In this document: positions 2,800 through 30,481 of the stretch, one piece after another
How positions within the stretch are numbered: the first letter of the stretch is position 1
How the letters are laid out: each line of letters begins with the position of its first letter
IMG/VR virus record: IMGVR_UViG_3300033233_000676
Location: 1-30,481 of that record
DNA: 30,481 nt
Source: a virus
Reading direction: 5' to 3' (one strand)
Notes under the pieces: generated by a model
Told to the model about the DNA's origin: nothing
Database searches by the model: none
The model's input: the letters and a program-made list of their open reading frames with translations, nothing else
Program-made: the position numbers and the translations under genes

Positions 2800-5700
2800 C
2801 TATGTAATGTTTCTCCCTAAGGCCTCAACTTTTTTCGCTAAGAGCTTTAAAAGCTCAAGCGTATTTTGCAAACTTCTACCAACGAATAAAGTTTTTATCC
2901 CTTTGTCAAAGTCGTAATTTATTTTGTAAACATACAAAGTCGTTCCTTCACAATTAACCGGGTCACCAATTTCAATCGGGGTTTCAAGTGAAACATCTTT
3001 CTGATATTGAACGACTGGGTCTTTTACGATGTTTAGATATTGATTTGCAAATAAATAAGCACTTTCATAAGAAGTCCAACCATCAAGTTTACGCTCTTCA
3101 AGATTTTCACCGTATTTGTTAATCGAGCCTTGGTCTCTAACCTCGACATACCTAAATTGCGGGTTCGAGTTGTAAAGGTATAAGGCATCGTAATAATTGT
3201 CACCAGTTGCAGTGAGTCGTATCGTTTTTATCGTTGTAGGGTTCCCCGTTTTAGAGAAACTTGAGAGCGGTATATCAATAGAATCAAATAAATTATAAGT
3301 CTGTTGCCAGGCGTAGGTTACATATTGCCAACCGTAAACAGGTGTATAGGTTGTAGACACTACAGCCTCAAAAACATCATAACTGCACCAAGCAGAGTCG
3401 ATATTTTCTGGTCCTGGCACGGTCATAGTAGCTTCAAGATAAAGTATACCATTTTGTGTATACCAATTTGCGCCTACAATTGCACCTTTCAATATACCGT
3501 CTTGAAAGTAGTTAATTGAGAAGCCGTAAACATTTACCATAAGTGATTGATTCCCCGAAACTGAATAAGCACTCCCAGCAGCCACTTTTGCGTGAAGTGT
3601 AAAAGTTGAACCGTCATAGGTTATATCTACACTCCCACTCCCTGTTAATCTTTGCCCCGTTACAACTGTTTCGGTTTTCTGAGTAGAAACAACGACATTC
3701 GCATACTCTTGAATATTTAACTGTTGACAGTTCACACCATATGAAGTCCCTACAGGGTAGAGGTTTGTGAAGTATAAGACTACCGTATCAGCTTGAGTAT
3801 TAAAGAATGGTAAATTAAAAGACTTCTGAAAGGTCGTGAGCCAGCCTGTATCAAGAACAACACTCCCACCCATCTTAAGCTGTATTTTATATGAGCAGTT
3901 ATCTGAAAGTTGCCCTGATATATTTGAAACAAGTTTTGTAGCCCCGAAGGTTATTGTCTTGCTTACCGTGTCTTGAGCTGAACCACCAAGCAAAACAAAA
4001 CCAGCGCCTTTACCGCCTGAGAAGGTTCGTGTGTATGAATAGTAATTTGAAGTATCGGTCTCTAATCTAATTGTCAAAGTCGTTGCAGTGTCTGGGTTCC
4101 AATTCAAGTGAAATCTGTCGTAATCAGTCGGTGTGATACTTATATTTGACCTGTAAATTTCACCAGTCGCTTTTAGCATATAAGGAGCATTTGAAGGCGG
4201 TAAAACACCATTAGAAGTCTGGGTCGCATTCGTTACGGTCCCAGACCAGTTAGAGGCATCGTATTCAGTTAAGGCAGTCGCAGGCACAGGGGTTTGAATT
4301 ATTTTGTAATATTCTCTCACTATATTCACAATGTTCTCTCTATCTTCCCCTTGTTTTTCTAAATTTGATAAGGTATAAGTCGGGTTTGTATCGTTCCGAA
4401 TGTATATTTTTCCATTTCTTTCATACATCCGAACCTGGTTAATCATAATCAAATATGATAGAATCTCGGCAATAGTTTTATCGCTAAATTGCTGAAAATA
4501 GATGTTTTGGGTTAAGTTCCCGAAAATCGAGTAAGCAGGCAAAATCTTTTGAAGTAAAGATTGTGAGCTTGTAACCTGCGCTCCATAGGTAATTGTCTTC
4601 TTAAGCTCTTTTTTGAGAGTCGATTGAACCGTATATTGCCAATTCGAACCTACTCGAGTACAGTTTTTTACTTGCATTTGATAAAACTTTACTTGTCTCC
4701 CCGTTTTTACTCTTAACTCCACAGAAGTCGAATCTATAGCATTATCGGTTACAAAAGTCGCTTCGTTTACATCAGGTAAAAGATTTTCGGTCAAAATTAC
4801 GTTCCAAGCATTTATCAACTCATTATTTGCATAGATTTTCACATCTTTGGTTGATTGGTAATTTGCATAAAGGTTATATGTATTGCTTACCAAAGTAGTC
4901 CAAACATTACTGATAGTAAATTGATACTGATGTTGCCCTGTCTCAAGTGGCAAAGTCTTAGAAAATGTGTAAATATAAGGGCCTGAACCTGTTCTCGAAA
5001 CATAGTCCATCAAATAACCTTTACTGTCTACATTCAAAGTTAACATCGGAGGCTTTGTGTAAGTGTCTTGAATTTGAACCGTAAAGGTAAAGTTTTCTTG
5101 ATTGTTATTTATGCTAATGCTCGAAATTGAAGGGTAACCGATATTTAGAATATTATTTCCAGGTGGGGTAAATGTAAAAGCATAATTAGTGTAATAAACC
5201 GTCCAATATAACATTGTGATTACAAGCCCTTGGTCGCCACCAGTTGCTGAAATATATACACCAAGCTTTGCATTCGTTAAATCGCTTAAAGACCACGCTG
5301 AACTATCCCAGTTTGTAGTTATAGTGTTTGATGATGTAGCCCACGTATTTGTTTGTGCGCTTGCAGAAATTTGAACGTATTTCGAAAAATCACTGTTATA
5401 AACTCTTGGGTAGTAAGTGAAAGCGGGCGAGGTCACGCCATAAGACCGTGCAGTAATACCTATTTTTGTAATTCTTTTAAAATCAGAAGGTGGCGAAAAT
5501 TGTTGTGTATCGAACTTTAATAATTTTGGACTTCCACTAGAAGCATAAGGGTAAACATAGGTTGCATTATCATCAGGTGTTGTCTCATCTATTTTGTCAT
5601 AGCCAGTCGCAGGAGAAGAAGGGGATACGGTTGCTCCTGCTAAGTCGATATCACCATTTGGTAAAAGATTTTGACTATATTCAGAGCTTTCGCTTACAGC

Positions 5701-6026: not shown

Positions 6027-7265
6027 TCACGGGTAGTAAGTGTCATTTATCGAAATATCCCATTTAGCTGCAAGCCCATCTGTCATCTGAATCGTGGTTG
6101 AAGTCGAAGGCTGAAACTCGAGAGGTGTGCCACTTGCAAGTCCCGTGATATCATTGCCGTTCTCATCTAACAAAGTTCCATTCTGATATGTGATAACTCC
6201 TGCCGTTTTATTTGCAATATAAAGTCCACTAAAGTTTAAAGGATTAAGTGTAAAGTTATACGATGTCGTAGTCCAATTCGAGACTTGATAATCATAAAGA
6301 ATGAAATCAGAAATTGCATCACCTAACCAGTTCCCAGAACCGTTCGAGCCGATATAAGTCGAGCCGAAAGTCAAACTAAATGCGCCCGATGTCGTTTGTA
6401 AAGTTGAAGAGTCGAATTTCTTATTTGTTGTATCCCATTTCGCAACCGAAAGATAAGTATTTGAGGTGTTCCACTGAATACCGATTAGATAGGCGTTCCC
6501 CGCCTCATAAGTTGTGTTTGAATATGAAACCTGCAAGGTATTAGAGCCTGAAATCAGTTTGATGTACCCGTTTGTTTTATCGAGTTGCAATTCGAATGAA
6601 GTATTTTTCAAAATCGTTCTTGGGCTTCCTGTATTCTGTCCCTTGTATTTGATTTTGAGAAGTAAAGTCCCGCTTGTATAATTCGAAATGTTTAAAGTTG
6701 CTACATCATTAGACGTGATAACAAGTCCCTCGTCAAAGATTGGAGTATTTGCTGAGTATGAGACACCGCCGTAAGTTTTAGAATTCGGGTTTGTAAAGGT
6801 TATGCTCGAGCTTGCAAAGTCAATCAAATTCAAAGTTAAAGGGAAATAAAATCTCGGTGCATAGTAAGTTATTTTAGGATAACCTTTATAAGTCCCGACT
6901 TGTGTTAAACTTGTAGAAGTTAGACCCCACAAGTCACCAGAAGTATGCAAGTTCCCAAGTCGTAGAGGTGAAGCGATTAAAGTCACCTTGAATGGAATAT
7001 AAAAACCATCTGGGACGGTCTCGAAATCAGGACCTTGAATAGCATAAACATACTGATATGTAATCCAGTTATCAAAACTTACCTTATTTGACTTTAAAAA
7101 TGGTATATCATCTCTGGTCTGTGCATAGCCTGAAATCGTTATCTCTTGCAATTTAAGTCCTAAAGAAGCCGCAAAGTTCTGTGCCGAATAAGGTATATGA
7201 TATGAGTAATACTCTATATCGTTTTTAATGATCGCATGTCCATTCAAGATATAAGAGTTCGCCAT
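6027..7265 (-). CDS. distal tail protein with LamG-like domain
   Basis: The 412-residue product has an N-terminal region (about 1-110: VSFDNWITYQYVYAIQGP, YIPFKVTLIASPLR) that would suit a distal tail (Dit-like) core. A concanavalin/LamG-like beta sandwich follows at about residues 170-335 (LLLKIKYKGQNTG, FELQLDKTNGYIKL, YIGSNGSGNWLGDAISDFILYD). LamG-type folds often bind carbohydrate, so an evolved distal tail protein that adds host-surface binding is plausible. It sits immediately upstream of the large tip protein. The ribosome site is AAAGGAG. The LamG call is by eye from spacing of Gly, aromatic and Asp residues. Confidence 0.65.
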   Translation of the reverse strand: MANSYILNGHAIIKNDIEYYSYHIPYSAQNFAASLGLKLQEITISGYAQTRDDIPFLKSNKVSFDNWITYQYVYAIQGPDFETVPDGFYIPFKVTLIASPLRLGNLHTSGDLWGLTSTSLTQVGTYKGYPKITYYAPRFYFPLTLNLIDFASSSITFTNPNSKTYGGVSYSANTPIFDEGLVITSNDVATLNISNYTSGTLLLKIKYKGQNTGSPRTILKNTSFELQLDKTNGYIKLISGSNTLQVSYSNTTYEAGNAYLIGIQWNTSNTYLSVAKWDTTNKKFDSSTLQTTSGAFSLTFGSTYIGSNGSGNWLGDAISDFILYDYQVSNWTTTSYNFTLNPLNFSGLYIANKTAGVITYQNGTLLDENGNDITGLASGTPLEFQPSTSTTIQMTDGLAAKWDISINDTYYP

Positions 7266-18238: not shown

Positions 18239-18371
18239 CACCTCGCAAAATGAAAACAGCGGGAGAGAGAAGGAGGTAGGAACTCCCCCGCATCGACGTC
18301 GCTACTCCTTTTCGTGTTAAGAGGACTGCCCACCACCGAATGTCCTCTTGTCCCGCACCCAAAGAGGGTGC
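18239..18371 (-). ncRNA. structured GC-rich leader of the late operon
   Basis: The minus-strand RNA contains three clear stems. One is GCACCC/GGGTGC with a five-base loop (18355-18371). The second is AAGAGGAC/GTCCTCTT with a 15-base loop (18319-18349). The third is GCGGGGGAG/CTCTCCCGC, nine pairs with one G-U, at 18283-18291 and 18259-18267. The pyrimidine-rich loop of the third stem includes TACCTC (18278-18273), which can pair with GAGGTG at 18244-18239, the TerS ribosome site, making an A-B-A'-B' pseudoknot. No convincing protein is encoded. It could control TerS translation or, like put sites of HK022, modify RNA polymerase for the long late operon. The fold is drawn by eye. Confidence 0.6.
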
Positions 18372-18396
18372 ACTCCCCACAAAATTTCACAACTAT

Positions 18397-22709: not shown

Positions 22710-23957
22710 TTAAAAGTCTTCTTGAAACTTCCCTGATGGTGTTAAAACCATCTTTTTCCAGCCGTTGCTTAAAACACCTAATGTCTGATTTTTTGCAACG
22801 GCATAATAGAATTTGTTTATCTCGTCTTTATCTCTACGAATTAAAACAACCGAAGTAGCGGTCTGTTCTAATGCTCCTGAGTCTCGAAGTCTTGATAAGT
22901 CGATTTCAGTTTCGTCTTCTTCTTTTGCACGATTGAACTGACTCAAAATAACAATACAACGCTTTTTTGAAAGCCTTCTGAGTTCTCTTGCAATATATTC
23001 CATCTCTTCATTACGGCTTGAACGGGTTTTTGTTTTAATAAGTTGGATATAGTCTATGAAAACCACATCAAAGTTATGACTCTCAATCCAGTTTTCAATA
23101 TCACTCAAATCCGAGTATTCCTCTACAAAATAAAAGTTTTTAAACACATCTTGATTTATGATAGCCATTCCAGCGTCCCACCACTTTTTGTCTTTTAAGT
23201 TAATATTTGCAAGTGGTGTCCCCTGAGAAATTTGCGAAAGTTCGTCTCCAAATTCCCAGTTGATTAGTCTAATAAGAAGTTGCTCTCTCCCAAGTTCCAT
23301 ACTTAAATAACCAACTTTCGCACCTTGAAAGAGAAATGATAAGGCAAGGTTTAATGCGATTTGAGTTTTACCTGTAGAAGTTCTCCCAGCAATGTAAATA
23401 TTTTCACCTCTCATAAACGGTATGAAATAAGTTAATTTCGAAAGATTGTCTGAAGTCCAGCGTTTAGATTCTGCAAGTCGTTTATAATCATCTTCGGTCA
23501 AAGTCTCACCGAAAGGTTTTTCGGACTCGTCTATGTAAAGACTTGAAAGTTCAGAGCCGATTTGCCTTATAGCGTCTAAGTCGCCAGCGAGTGCCAAGTC
23601 CTGTATTTTTTCACCAAGTTCGAAAGCGTGCCGTAGGACTGATTTTTCTTTAACAACCCTCACATAGTAAGGAAGGTTTATCGAAGTAGGTATTGACATA
23701 GAAAGTTGCATAAGATAAGATTCGCCACCGACTTCGGGAAGTTTGTCTCCTAATTCGTCTATGACTGAAACGATATCGGGTTCAATGTTTTTAGACCATA
23801 AACCTTGAATTGCTTTAAAAATTGTCTGATGTTCCGTCCAGTAAAAGTCTTGAGGACTTAATTCCTCGCCACCTTTGCCATTAGCAAGAATACAACCTAA
23901 AATAAACTGTTCCGCTTCGACTGAATACGGGAGCGGTTTGAGTTCAGAAGTAGCCAT
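22710..23957 (-). CDS. dnaB: DnaB-like replicative helicase
   Basis: 415 residues. The N-terminal domain shows VEAEQFILGCIL and FYWTEHQTIFKAI, typical of DnaB. The RecA-like half has Walker A GRTSTGKT (191-198), LSMELGREQL (the H1a-type region), Walker B VVFIDYIQLI (about 278-287) and a sensor-like ILSQFNR, then SGALEQTATSVVLIRR. It unwinds the phage fork and is probably loaded by the initiator encoded upstream, whose gene it overlaps by 14 bases. No phage primase or polymerase is present, so those would come from the host. AGGAGG precedes the ATG. Confidence 0.93.
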   Translation of the reverse strand: MATSELKPLPYSVEAEQFILGCILANGKGGEELSPQDFYWTEHQTIFKAIQGLWSKNIEPDIVSVIDELGDKLPEVGGESYLMQLSMSIPTSINLPYYVRVVKEKSVLRHAFELGEKIQDLALAGDLDAIRQIGSELSSLYIDESEKPFGETLTEDDYKRLAESKRWTSDNLSKLTYFIPFMRGENIYIAGRTSTGKTQIALNLALSFLFQGAKVGYLSMELGREQLLIRLINWEFGDELSQISQGTPLANINLKDKKWWDAGMAIINQDVFKNFYFVEEYSDLSDIENWIESHNFDVVFIDYIQLIKTKTRSSRNEEMEYIARELRRLSKKRCIVILSQFNRAKEEDETEIDLSRLRDSGALEQTATSVVLIRRDKDEINKFYYAVAKNQTLGVLSNGWKKMVLTPSGKFQEDF

Positions 23958-24858
23958 AACCTGCCTCCTTTTTCTCTTGTTTCTCTTTCTGTTCGTTTAA
24001 TGCACCCCGCCAAGATTCAATAGAATTTGACACAGCGTGTAAGTTACGCATCATTTGTCTCGGGTCTTTTTTGTCCTTAATATATTGTTCCTTACCATAC
24101 CTCACCGCTTCCATTATCTCATCTATCGTATATACTTTTAATAGGTCTCTCGCCGCTTTACTATTTATATCAATCGTATGCGGTGGTCTAAATTCGAGTC
24201 CCATCTCTTCACAAAACATTGCAACCAATTTGAAAATCGCCTTGTTCGAAACCTTCTGCTCGCCACTCGCCGACTCAATAGAAGTTTCTTTTTCTTTTTC
24301 ATTTTCATTTAGAGAAGGATTCAAAACCTCTCCCTTAATTGTATCTAAAGATACAATTGGATTATTACTTATTGTACTTATTGTATTTATTGTATTATGG
24401 GTTGATTCTTTTTTGTGTGCTTTGTTGTGTTCTTCGTTGTGTGCTTTTAAATTTTCATGTGTTTGAATTTCTGCATTGTTATTTATCTCGTTGGCTGTCT
24501 CTGTTGTGTGCTCTGTTGTGTTCTTTGTTGTGTTCTTTGATATGTGCTTTTGTGATGTCTCTGATTGAGTATGCTGATATTTATCCCAATTAAGAATGGT
24601 AATCTCTACTCCTCTTGGCAATTTTTTTCTTGTAATCATTTGTTCCTGTTCCATAAAGTTAAAACATTTTCTTAATTGATTTTGTGTTATATGGCATTCG
24701 TTTTCAATAACACCCCAAGAGAAAAAGCCAATTCCGTTCTGATGGTCTACGTTTAATAACAGATAAATCCAAACCTTGAAATATTCTGATGGCTTATCAA
24801 ATATCGGACTTTGAAGTATTTTTCTATGTAAAGAAATCCAGCCATTATTTTTTTCCAT
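23944..24858 (-). CDS. replication initiator with winged-helix N-terminus
   Basis: 304 residues. The first about 95 (GWISLHRKILQSPIF ... VWIYLLLNV ... ITILNWDKYQ) match the winged-helix replication proteins of Bacillota phages. Residues about 100-195 are low complexity, rich in Thr, Asn, His and Lys, and are encoded by iteron-like DNA repeats (see 24337-24550). The C-terminal part (SKAARDLLKVYTIDEIMEAVRYG ... SIESWRGALNEQ) is the usual helical tail that contacts the helicase or loader. As with lambda O, the protein probably binds repeats within its own gene and recruits the DnaB-like helicase encoded next. GAGGA precedes the ATG. Confidence 0.85.
   Translation of the reverse strand: MEKNNGWISLHRKILQSPIFDKPSEYFKVWIYLLLNVDHQNGIGFFSWGVIENECHITQNQLRKCFNFMEQEQMITRKKLPRGVEITILNWDKYQHTQSETSQKHISKNTTKNTTEHTTETANEINNNAEIQTHENLKAHNEEHNKAHKKESTHNTINTISTISNNPIVSLDTIKGEVLNPSLNENEKEKETSIESASGEQKVSNKAIFKLVAMFCEEMGLEFRPPHTIDINSKAARDLLKVYTIDEIMEAVRYGKEQYIKDKKDPRQMMRNLHAVSNSIESWRGALNEQKEKQEKKEAGYGYF
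24337..24550. other. probable replication origin inside the initiator gene
   Basis: On the plus strand seven near-identical 12-bp units of the form GTTGTGTKCTTT occur in two tandem clusters: four at 24503-24550 and three at 24412-24447. The clusters lie in different reading frames (KNTT type versus KAHN type), so the DNA rather than the protein seems to be conserved. Next to them are three 9-bp AT-rich units (CTTATTGTA, CTTATTGTA, TTTATTGTA; 24368-24394) and an inverted repeat with 10-base arms AATTGTATCT / AGATACAATT and a two-base centre (24337-24358). Iterons, an AT-rich unwinding-like tract and a palindrome inside an initiator gene are the layout of an origin. Confidence 0.72.
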
Positions 24859-24885: not shown

Positions 24886-25452
24886 TCATTTTCTATACCT
24901 TTTTAAAATCTCTACCGTTGCTTCCATCATTTCTTGCGTTTCTTTGTAGATGTTTGGCAACGATAAAAAATATTTTGTTACTTCTCTGGCACACTTTTTA
25001 GGGTCTCTGAGAACTTCTCTGGCTGCAAACCTCATTATTTTCCAGCCATCATTGAATAAGTCCCGTTCCCGTTTTTTCTCTTGTTCGAATTGCTCTGGTG
25101 TTGTGCCGTGCCATAAATAACTATCTACTTCAACAATCAGTGCGTGGTCTTTATGATGTTCTGGCAATCCTTCTTCATAATTTTGCCATGCGTAATCTGG
25201 TGTGTAGTAGATTAAAAAGTCAACTTTATACGTTTTACCTGAACTGGTTTTGATAGGGTATTGAGGTAATACATCAAATTGAAATAAGTCCATCGAACTT
25301 GAACGGTTATAACTTTCTGTCTCGCTTGTTAATTCAATATACAGGATTTGCTCGACTGGACTTTCGATGTGAAACAACTCGAACCACATTTCGTAGTCTT
25401 CTACGATTTCTTGACTCTTTCTGTCAAGATACTGCTTTACGATTTTATCCAT
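24886..25452 (-). CDS. Vsr/DUF559-like PD-(D/E)XK endonuclease
   Basis: 188 residues from the ATG at 25452, which has GGGAGG at the right distance. The frame continues upstream without a ribosome site into the leader. Motifs are SPVEQILY (Glu34), YKVDFLIY (Asp78), IVEVDSYLWHG (Glu108, Asp110, His115), then a Lys/Arg helix and GWKIMRF. These are the signatures of very-short-patch-repair/DUF559 nucleases, some of which are free-standing homing endonucleases in phages. It has its own promoter-like box and structured leader, unlike its neighbours, which fits an inserted selfish gene. Confidence 0.82.
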   Translation of the reverse strand: MDKIVKQYLDRKSQEIVEDYEMWFELFHIESPVEQILYIELTSETESYNRSSSMDLFQFDVLPQYPIKTSSGKTYKVDFLIYYTPDYAWQNYEEGLPEHHKDHALIVEVDSYLWHGTTPEQFEQEKKRERDLFNDGWKIMRFAAREVLRDPKKCAREVTKYFLSLPNIYKETQEMMEATVEILKRYRK

Positions 25453-25455
25453 CTT

Positions 25456-25523
25456 CGCCTCCCAATCTTTAGAACAGGGGGAGGGAAAAGAGGAGGCGTC
25501 CCCAGAACCCTTCTCCCTGTTCT
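25456..25523 (-). ncRNA. leader with interlocked inverted repeats covering the ribosome site
   Basis: In the transcript, A (AGAACAGGG, 25523-25515) pairs perfectly with A' (CCCTGTTCT, 25479-25471). B (CGCCTCC, 25498-25492) pairs perfectly with B' (GGAGGCG, 25462-25456), which is the ribosome site of the Vsr-like gene. Order A-B-A'-B' makes an H-type pseudoknot, or two competing hairpins. The connecting segments are 16, 12 and 8 bases, long enough for a true pseudoknot. Same topology as 28824-28866. Confidence 0.65.
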
Positions 25524-25530
25524 TACTTAT

Positions 25531-25558
25531 ATTATACTCAAGTTTCGTCCAAATCCAA
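25531..25558 (-). promoter_or_regulatory. putative promoter of the Vsr-like gene
   Basis: The minus strand reads AACTTGAGTATAATATAA, with TATAAT at 25536-25531, nearly identical to the box at 28872-28877. The -35 region is weak (TTGGAT, 16-base spacer). Transcription would begin just before strand A of the leader. Confidence 0.55.
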
Positions 25559-28305: not shown

Positions 28306-28818
28306 TTAATAATTCTCAGATTGTATTTTTTCTTTTCTTTTCGCAAGCAAATCCATAAGAAACCACCTAACCGCCATGCTGTCTATTTTATCCATTCCTT
28401 GCCCTGTTTTGTGGTTGTGATATAACGACCTATGAAGTTGTTTCGGGATATAGATAACTGTGACGCCATCAGACATATGATGACCTTCGCTTCCCTCAAA
28501 TGGTTTATTTACGGGTTCATAACCAAGTTCACGATAACGCTTACTCATGGACTTTTTAAGCGATTCAAGGTATCTCTTGCGATTTTTCTTTCGCCACTTT
28601 TTTGCTTGCTTAATTATTTTCTTACGATTTTTATAATATCTCTTTCGTGCTGTTTCTTTTGCTTGTTCAGGATGCTCTTTATACCATCTTTTTACTGCTT
28701 TGATATTACCCTCTTTGTAGGCTGTCTCTTTGCACTCAAGACAGTATTTTTGATTGCTATTTGTTGGTATAAATTCCTTACCACAAATCACGCAAACTCT
28801 TGGTTTATATTGTTTCAT
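28306..28818 (-). CDS. HNH-like nuclease 1 with zinc knuckle
   Basis: 170 residues, same family as the junction-spanning gene. Zinc ligands are C9, C12, C26, C29 (CVICGKEF, YCLEC). Basic helices follow with W-Y-K-E-H-P-E type repeats. The C-terminal catalytic-type block is FEGSEGHH (His113, His114), VIYIPKQLHRSLYHN (His129, His134) and GMDKIDSMAVRWFL. The HH ... YIP-x-x-(L/I)H order suggests a beta-beta-alpha-metal nuclease, probably a homing endonuclease. It ends the late operon and has its own promoter-like box and a ribosome site buried in an interlocked repeat, so expression is probably timed separately. Confidence 0.78.
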   Translation of the reverse strand: MKQYKPRVCVICGKEFIPTNSNQKYCLECKETAYKEGNIKAVKRWYKEHPEQAKETARKRYYKNRKKIIKQAKKWRKKNRKRYLESLKKSMSKRYRELGYEPVNKPFEGSEGHHMSDGVTVIYIPKQLHRSLYHNHKTGQGMDKIDSMAVRWFLMDLLAKRKEKIQSENY

Positions 28819-28823
28819 TATAG

Positions 28824-28866
28824 CACCTATCCTTTCAGGGCAGGGCGATAGGTGTTCCCTGCCCTG
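28824..28866 (-). ncRNA. leader with interlocked inverted repeats covering the ribosome site
   Basis: In the transcript, A (CAGGGCAGGG, 28866-28857) pairs perfectly with A' (CCCTGCCCTG, 28845-28836). B (CACCTATC, 28854-28847) pairs perfectly with B' (GATAGGTG, 28831-28824). B' contains the AGGTG ribosome site, five bases before the ATG. The connecting segments are only 2, 1 and 4 bases, so a full pseudoknot over ten base pairs may be strained. Two mutually exclusive hairpins, one exposing and one hiding the ribosome site, are more likely. GC-rich against an AT-rich background. Confidence 0.75.
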
Positions 28867-28871
28867 TTTAT

Positions 28872-28909
28872 ATTATATTCAAGTTATCATCAAACACAAA
28901 ATTCAAAAG
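28872..28909 (-). promoter_or_regulatory. putative promoter of HNH nuclease 1
   Basis: The minus strand reads AACTTGAATATAATATAA, with TATAAT at 28877-28872. The -35 region is poor (TTGTGT with a 16-base spacer). Two shared features support it: near identity with the box at 25531-25536, and a 13-base block (28897-28909) repeated exactly upstream of the box at 18.4 kb at almost the same distance. Transcription would start at the first strand of the leader. Confidence 0.55.
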
Positions 28910-30117: not shown

Positions 30118-30481
30118 TTTTCACCCCCATTTTTTGCGTTTAAATGCAAATAATTCCAAGCGATTGCGTTTATTTCGTCCATATTTTGATTGCGTAAAAC
30201 AGAATGTGGAATTGATTGATGTATCTCTCTTGGTATATAAATTCCATAATTTAAATCAAGATGATGAAAAACAGAGCCTTCAAAAAACTCGTTTAAAGGG
30301 ATAAAGCCGAATTGCCTACGTTTGCATTTATATTTTACCCTTAATGCTTTTACTTTCTGGGGATTATTTTGTTTCCATTGCTTAAATTTCTCTTTTACTT
30401 TGTCTAAATGTCTTAGTCTGCTTCTTCTTTTTTCTTCTTTAACTTTTTCGGGATTTTGTTTTATCCAGCGTTTTTTATTCT
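30114..30481 (-). CDS. HNH-like nuclease 2, C-terminal part (continues from base 1)
   Basis: This is the end of the gene that starts at 287. Bases 30343-30481 repeat the left end and stay in the same frame. Unique sequence (30342-30114) encodes KYKCKRRQFGFIPLNEFFEG, then the HH pair (122-123), NYGIYIPREIHQS (His137) and NMDEINAIAWNYL, the catalytic-type half shared with HNH nuclease 1. In this copy residue 54 is Arg rather than His. The TGA at 30114-30116 overlaps the TTG of the zincin-like gene. Confidence 0.75.
   Translation of the reverse strand, partial: NKKRWIKQNPEKVKEEKRRSRLRHLDKVKEKFKQWKQNNPQKVKALRVKYKCKRRQFGFIPLNEFFEGSVFHHLDLNYGIYIPREIHQSIPHSVLRNQNMDEINAIAWNYLHLNAKNGGEN
30343..30481. 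repeat. terminal overlap of the circular contig, right copy
   Basis: Matches bases 1-139 except for C at 30469 (T at 127). See the left copy for interpretation. The difference falls inside the HNH gene and changes one amino acid, so the two reads came from different phage variants, or one carries an error. Confidence 0.9.

Follow-up and report, generated by a model that had tools for sequence, protein, structure and literature searches.

The leader of a putative nuclease gene in this phage genome contains two interlocked inverted repeats, ordered A-B-A′-B′, in which the last strand overlaps the ribosome site of the gene. Strands B and B′ have changed together between relatives, and an equivalent leader with a different sequence precedes the replication operon. 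We consider it likely that this is a cis-acting element at the 5′ terminus of the mRNA, in which the loop of a hairpin (B) captures the ribosome site (B′) and lowers ribosome access. From the comparison of sequences we infer that the two strands pair in the cell and that this pairing represses translation.

The window, that is the whole stretch of DNA analyzed, is a virus record of 30,481 bases. Its ends (1–139 and 30343–30481) form a 139-base terminal repeat of 99.3% identity, which indicates that the window is probably a complete, circularly assembled (or circularly permuted) genome. The minus strand carries the recognized genes, namely those for terminase, portal, tape measure, DnaB helicase and a calcineurin-like phosphoesterase. 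On the same strand, the nuclease leader occupies the space between the phosphoesterase gene, which ends at 28903, and the gene for a 170-amino-acid protein (P0001; 28306–28818, ATG at 28818), a paralog of which spans the junction of the window ends. For comparison we used four IMG/VR contigs, 3300033233_000120 (G001), _000133 (G002), _000127 (G003) and _000254 (G011), which are close relatives (terminase 96–97% identical). The nuclease leader could be compared in two sequences and the replication leader in five, nearly all from one metagenome.

Read along the minus strand, the leader RNA consists of CAGGGCAGGG (A, 28866–28857), AA, CACCUAUC (B, 28854–28847), G, CCCUGCCCUG (A′, 28845–28836), AAAG, GAUAGGUG (B′, 28831–28824), CUAUA and the AUG. 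A and A′ form a perfect 10-nt inverted repeat (10 bp), inside whose hairpin loop lies B, which in turn forms a perfect 8-nt repeat with B′. The connectors measure 2, 1 and 4 nt, and B′ ends 5 nt before the ATG. The first-pass annotation had described these two perfect, interlocked repeats, and we recovered them at exactly the positions it gave. It had also equated the ribosome site with the last strand. B′ does belong to the ribosome-site region (28835–28824, together with the AAAG connector, L3), but the Shine-Dalgarno sequence is not confined to B′: both AAAGGA, which joins L3 to the start of B′, and AGGUG are Shine-Dalgarno-like, and G003 conserves AAAGGA, not AGGTG. RNA folding returned the A hairpin; the 83-nt region around it has a z-score of −3.3.

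The element is predicted to stand at the very beginning of its transcript. A promoter predicted on the minus strand (TTGTGT at 28899–28894, a 16 nt spacer and TATAAT at 28877–28872) falls within a motif common to both leaders, AACTTGAnTATAATATAA; AACTTGAATATAATATAA lies directly upstream of strand A, and the −35 hexamer TTGTGT is a weak match to the consensus. With initiation placed 5–9 nt after the −10 box, transcription would start at about 28867–28863, at strand A. We found no promoter-like site on the minus strand inside the leader. Exact matches to AACTTGAnTATAATA occur in the window only at the nuclease leader and at 25544–25530, upstream of the second interlocked leader; the promoter predicted there (TTGGAT, 16 nt, TATAAT; 25558–25531, minus strand) has the same motif. 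Nearby in the relatives, the leader behind a strong promoter of the TTGACA type is rich in A and lacks a hairpin of this kind.

The gene behind the leader had been called an HNH nuclease. Its product has an N-terminal CxxC..CxxC zinc-finger-like part, a basic helical middle and a C-terminal GxHH..VIYIP..LHRS..H motif, of which HH..IYIP..H.S..H is invariant in three homologs. The low-confidence AlphaFold model (mean pLDDT 72.5) is weak at the C-terminus and has the order beta-beta-alpha there. Comparisons of the fold and with Pfam, NCBIfam and the PDB gave no significant HNH match for this protein; a paralog has a weak match to the PHROG 'HNH endonuclease' (E 0.066), located on the paralog's N-terminal part. 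The HNH assignment is thus by motif only, and an HNH-like nuclease is plausible.

The arrangement of the leader is non-random. The window contains perfect interlocked repeats of 10 and 8 bases once, whereas 20 Markov-shuffled genomes contain none. A loose descriptor of interlocked repeats proved of no use in GC-rich contigs, and we replaced it by a start-codon scan that was blind to the sequence of the element. Each of 1451 candidate starts, drawn from the window and relatives, was scored for a stable hairpin on its 5′ side together with the pairing of that hairpin's loop to the 24 nt immediately preceding the start codon. Six starts reached −30 kcal/mol or better, where dinucleotide-shuffled upstream regions gave an expectation of 0.15 per set. 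All six belong to the leaders described here: the nuclease leader of the window and its G003 homolog, plus the leaders at the replication operon in the window, G001, G002 and G003. As homologs of just two elements, the six amount to two findings. A further candidate start at window position 7265 was rejected, its stem lying within an upstream open frame. We also rejected a reading of the nuclease-leader hairpin as a plus-strand terminator, given that the recognized genes are on the minus strand and the hairpin is absent from the terminator scan.

G003 has a homolog of the 170-amino-acid gene at the same place, together with the leader, while G001 and G002 display an empty site in which the phosphoesterase gene is present with no P0001-like gene behind it. 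Elsewhere, G003 contains a further paralog (L014 1501–1692) with one TAA within the matched stretch. The G003 leader reads UAGGGCAGGG AA CACCAGUC G CCCUGCCCUG AAAG GACUGGUA AA AUG. Because MAFFT, run on the longer HNH pair, introduced a gap into B′, we counted base pairs on a gapless 49-nt alignment, which contains seven differences. Two B:B′ pairs are compensated (U-A to A-U and A-U to G-C), and the outer A pair changes from C-G to U-G with pairing retained; the remaining differences break one terminal B pair and alter one unpaired base, such that 17 of the 18 pairs are kept. When seven substitutions were placed at random, at least two compensated pairs together with at least 17/18 kept pairs arose in 0.19% of trials (P about 0.002), and slid registers gave zero compensated pairs. 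The tool's own shuffle control returned 118/500, a test that is powerless with two sequences. Cognate B:B′ pairings in the two nuclease leaders have energies of −13.1 and −12.1, which weaken to −4.8 and −7.8 when the strands are swapped. The comparison among related phages that the first-pass annotation had proposed as a check thus comes out in favor of B:B′ at this locus, where A is nearly invariant.

The second leader lies at 25450–25523 on the minus strand (A 25523–25515, B 25498–25491, A′ 25479–25471, B′ 25463–25456, ATG 25452). In the window, a DUF559/REase_MTES_1575-like putative nuclease gene (24886–25452, minus strand) sits between this leader and the gene for a replication initiator or DnaD-like helicase loader (23944–24858, minus strand), the counterpart of which follows the leader directly in the relatives. 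A DUF559/MTES_1575-type gene at this leader is absent from G001, G002 and G011. In all four relatives, the promoter motif (carrying one or two alterations in G002 and G011) and an interlocked leader directly precede the replication initiator gene, whose product in G001 matches Phage_rep_O with an E-value of 2e-18. The B and B′ strands of this leader exist in three unrelated forms, CGCCUCCU/GGGAGGCG, CUUGCCUCCUUCC/GGAAGGAAGGCAAG and CUCACCGCCUUUCU/AGAAAGGCAAGGUGAG; in G011 they are wholly different, yet still complementary. Cognate pairing energies in G001 and G011 are −21.7 and −21.9, and about −12 upon swapping. The A helix is identical in G001, G002, G003 and G011 and entirely different in the window, where it is again paired. 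This replacement of A as a pair, together with the co-change of B and B′, is the strongest evidence for selection acting on both helices. Covariation was found for B at both leaders and for A at the replication leader. Compensated B:B′ pairs in G003 and the rebuilding of both stems as pairs at the replication locus support the original proposal of an RNA element able to hide a ribosome site.

The specific role suggested for it, timing of a selfish nuclease, is not supported in that form: because the same promoter and leader precede the replication initiator in four relatives, the leader is not nuclease-specific. It probably serves this phage group as a general module for controlling genes, one that the putative nuclease gene carries as well. 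The exact whole element was absent from the viral contigs; the core pattern GGGAACACCNNTCGCCC occurred in 21 stretches, of which the G003 contig was the sole recognized relative and the others were background in the descriptor scan. Searches with the promoter motif in viral contigs and bacterial genomes revealed no such leader outside this phage group, and protein searches (P0001 in annotated phages, A1 in bacterial genomes) returned no relatives. The leader matches no known riboswitch or Rfam cis-regulatory family: the window gave no Rfam match at gathering thresholds, and permissive E-values produced sub-threshold matches only.

Another conserved RNA maps just upstream of the packaging genes. 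It is a very conserved non-coding RNA of roughly 140 nt with its own promoter (window 18246–18395, minus strand), also present in relatives (L042 15275–15450; L047 around 4846–4951; L065 3432–3690; L066, L069 and L156), and has the sequence GGGGAGTGCACCC..GGGTGCGGGACAAGAGGAC..GTCCTCTT..AAAAGGAGTAGCGACGTCGATG. At its end stands a hairpin resembling a terminator (GCGGGGGAG..CTCTCCCGC TGTTTT). The loop of this hairpin, CUACCUCCUU, is able to pair with GAGGUG of the next gene, but this loop pairing is not specific to the RNA's own gene. Rfam gave no match above threshold for this RNA.

How the two helices of the leader would coexist depends on the connectors, whose shortness had been taken to argue against a static pseudoknot. 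A-form geometry speaks against that argument. In the nuclease leader, the 2-nt L1 is long enough to cross the deep groove of an 8-bp helix, and the 4-nt L3 is marginal over the 10 bp of A (about 37 Å), whereas 5 nt spans 9 bp (33.6 Å); an H-type pseudoknot is thus sterically possible once one outer A pair opens. By rough energies that include a pseudoknot penalty of 8.1 kcal/mol, the pseudoknot of the nuclease leader reaches −23.1 with all A pairs or −20.2 with one frayed, against −20.8 for hairpin A, and that of the G001 replication leader −25.4 against −28.2. The closed form would accordingly be favored by about 2 kcal/mol in the nuclease leader and disfavored by about 3–5 kcal/mol in the replication leaders. 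Such gaps lie within the error of these estimates, which therefore do not clearly single out the closed form as the ground state. The full B:B′ helix of the replication leaders comprises 13–14 bp with no L2 and an L3 of 2–3 nt, which is incompatible with all 13 A pairs.

These features bear on a tentative variant of our explanation, the two-state switch that the first-pass annotation had favored, in which the A hairpin frees the ribosome site, B:B′ hides it, and a trans-acting factor or the order of folding chooses between them. We regard this variant as possible rather than probable. In its favor, full A and full B exclude each other in the replication leaders, and in every form their L1 (GGGA, GGGGU or GGGGA) pairs with the inner portion of B. 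This pairing extends the A hairpin in the open form, so that two competing states are built into these leaders, and the estimated energies of the states lie within a few kcal/mol of each other. The nuclease leader fits less well, because its B strand is free while A is closed, so that A alone leaves the ribosome site unprotected; moreover, blocking strand A would yield a B hairpin of only about −11, compared with −20.8 for A, and the switch has no known ligand or regulator.

The broader explanation, capture of the ribosome site by the hairpin loop, accommodates either geometry. The first 31 nt of the transcript would fold into the strong A:A′ hairpin, and its loop would present B, complementary to the downstream ribosome-site region B′. 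B:B′ could then form atop the full A hairpin, as an H-type pseudoknot, or compete with it, and this pairing would lower ribosome access to the gene. The shift to the open form might be driven by an initiating ribosome, by a phage or host protein, or by the timing of folding. A more ambitious version, which we find doubtful, would treat the leaders as parts of a phage-wide regulon of several genes: the shared promoter motif would be coupled to a 5′ hairpin whose loop is privately complementary to each gene's ribosome site, forming a bistable lock, and a common phage or host factor would open the locks at a set time, with incoming nuclease genes acquiring or borrowing the module.

Other readings would assign the repeats a different function. 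The 5′ structure might mainly protect the mRNA from 5′-end-dependent decay (RppH, RNase J), with the ribosome-site pairing being secondary. In both leaders strand A is predicted to begin no more than 3 nt from the transcription start, which would suit such a role, but a 5′ hairpin alone would suffice for it, and the co-change of B and B′ and the constant cover of the ribosome site by B′ would be left unexplained; we judge this reading unlikely. Less likely still is a DNA-level element (an operator, nuclease target, cruciform or part of an origin) whose palindromes overlap the ribosome site by accident. Inverted repeats are typical of DNA sites, and these leaders do precede a putative nuclease and a replication initiator. 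However, B is replaced completely between relatives with complementarity kept, which a protein target would hardly tolerate, and the interlocked order, the fixed position relative to the start codon and the retention of one change as G-U also speak against it. Chance, or a functionless quasi-palindrome made by templated mutation, seems to us very improbable: template switching can produce complementary changes in one step and could supply them without selection, but neither the six starts found where 0.15 were expected at the −30 cut-off nor the reappearance of the design at a second locus, again behind this promoter motif, would follow from it, and the retention of the leader in five phages and of the complementary changes would go unexplained.

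Ribosome-site capture by the hairpin loop would have relatives among known systems. An RNA hairpin sequesters the ribosome site of mobE, an HNH homing endonuclease gene of Aeromonas phage Aeh1, as well as those of T4 I-TevI, I-TevII and I-TevIII and segB (PMC2988022). For I-TevI, a late promoter is placed such that late transcripts drop the inhibitory strand (PMC2988022). In both their case and ours a phage endonuclease gene (here putative) has, or in our case would have, its ribosome site within an intramolecular RNA pairing; theirs is a hairpin, whereas here the element is an interlocked A-B-A′-B′ arrangement at the 5′ end, and the same design also precedes a replication initiator, so that it is not confined to endonuclease genes. 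The parallel to I-TevI that had been drawn for this leader reduces to a ribosome site hidden in RNA: the predicted promoter (28899–28872) lies upstream of the whole element, every transcript would hence carry it, and timing by promoter choice does not apply. Among the endonuclease precedents, mobE of phage Aeh1 is the nearer one.

The nearest phage pseudoknot is that of gene 32 in T4, T2 and RB69, which lies in the leader about 67 nt upstream and nucleates gp32 binding (PMC3014915). Both concern a pseudoknot (here a candidate) at the 5′ end of a phage mRNA, translational control and a replication-related gene, but the strands of the gene 32 pseudoknot exclude the ribosome site, whereas here B′ is the ribosome site. 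The preQ1-I and SAM-II riboswitches are H-type pseudoknots that pair the ribosome site in P2. Our leaders may share their compact H-type topology, with the Shine-Dalgarno sequence in the second stem; unlike them, our leaders have no Rfam match and no conserved ligand core, and from one locus to the other their loops and stems vary freely in sequence. In the mRNA of the type I toxin timP, translation is activated by a pseudoknot and opposed by an antisense RNA (PMC11228461). Mutually exclusive RNA states that include a pseudoknot govern ribosome access there, as they may here, with the difference that the timP pseudoknot activates, whereas the pairing described here would cover the ribosome site. 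To these systems our analysis adds a covariation-backed leader that would bury a ribosome site, in a phage group far from T4. A single architecture serves there for both a replication operon and a putative selfish gene, with the sequence differing between the two. Among the relatives B and B′ co-change and A remains constant, so that these phages offer natural compensatory variants for testing loop-to-ribosome-site pairing in phage gene timing.
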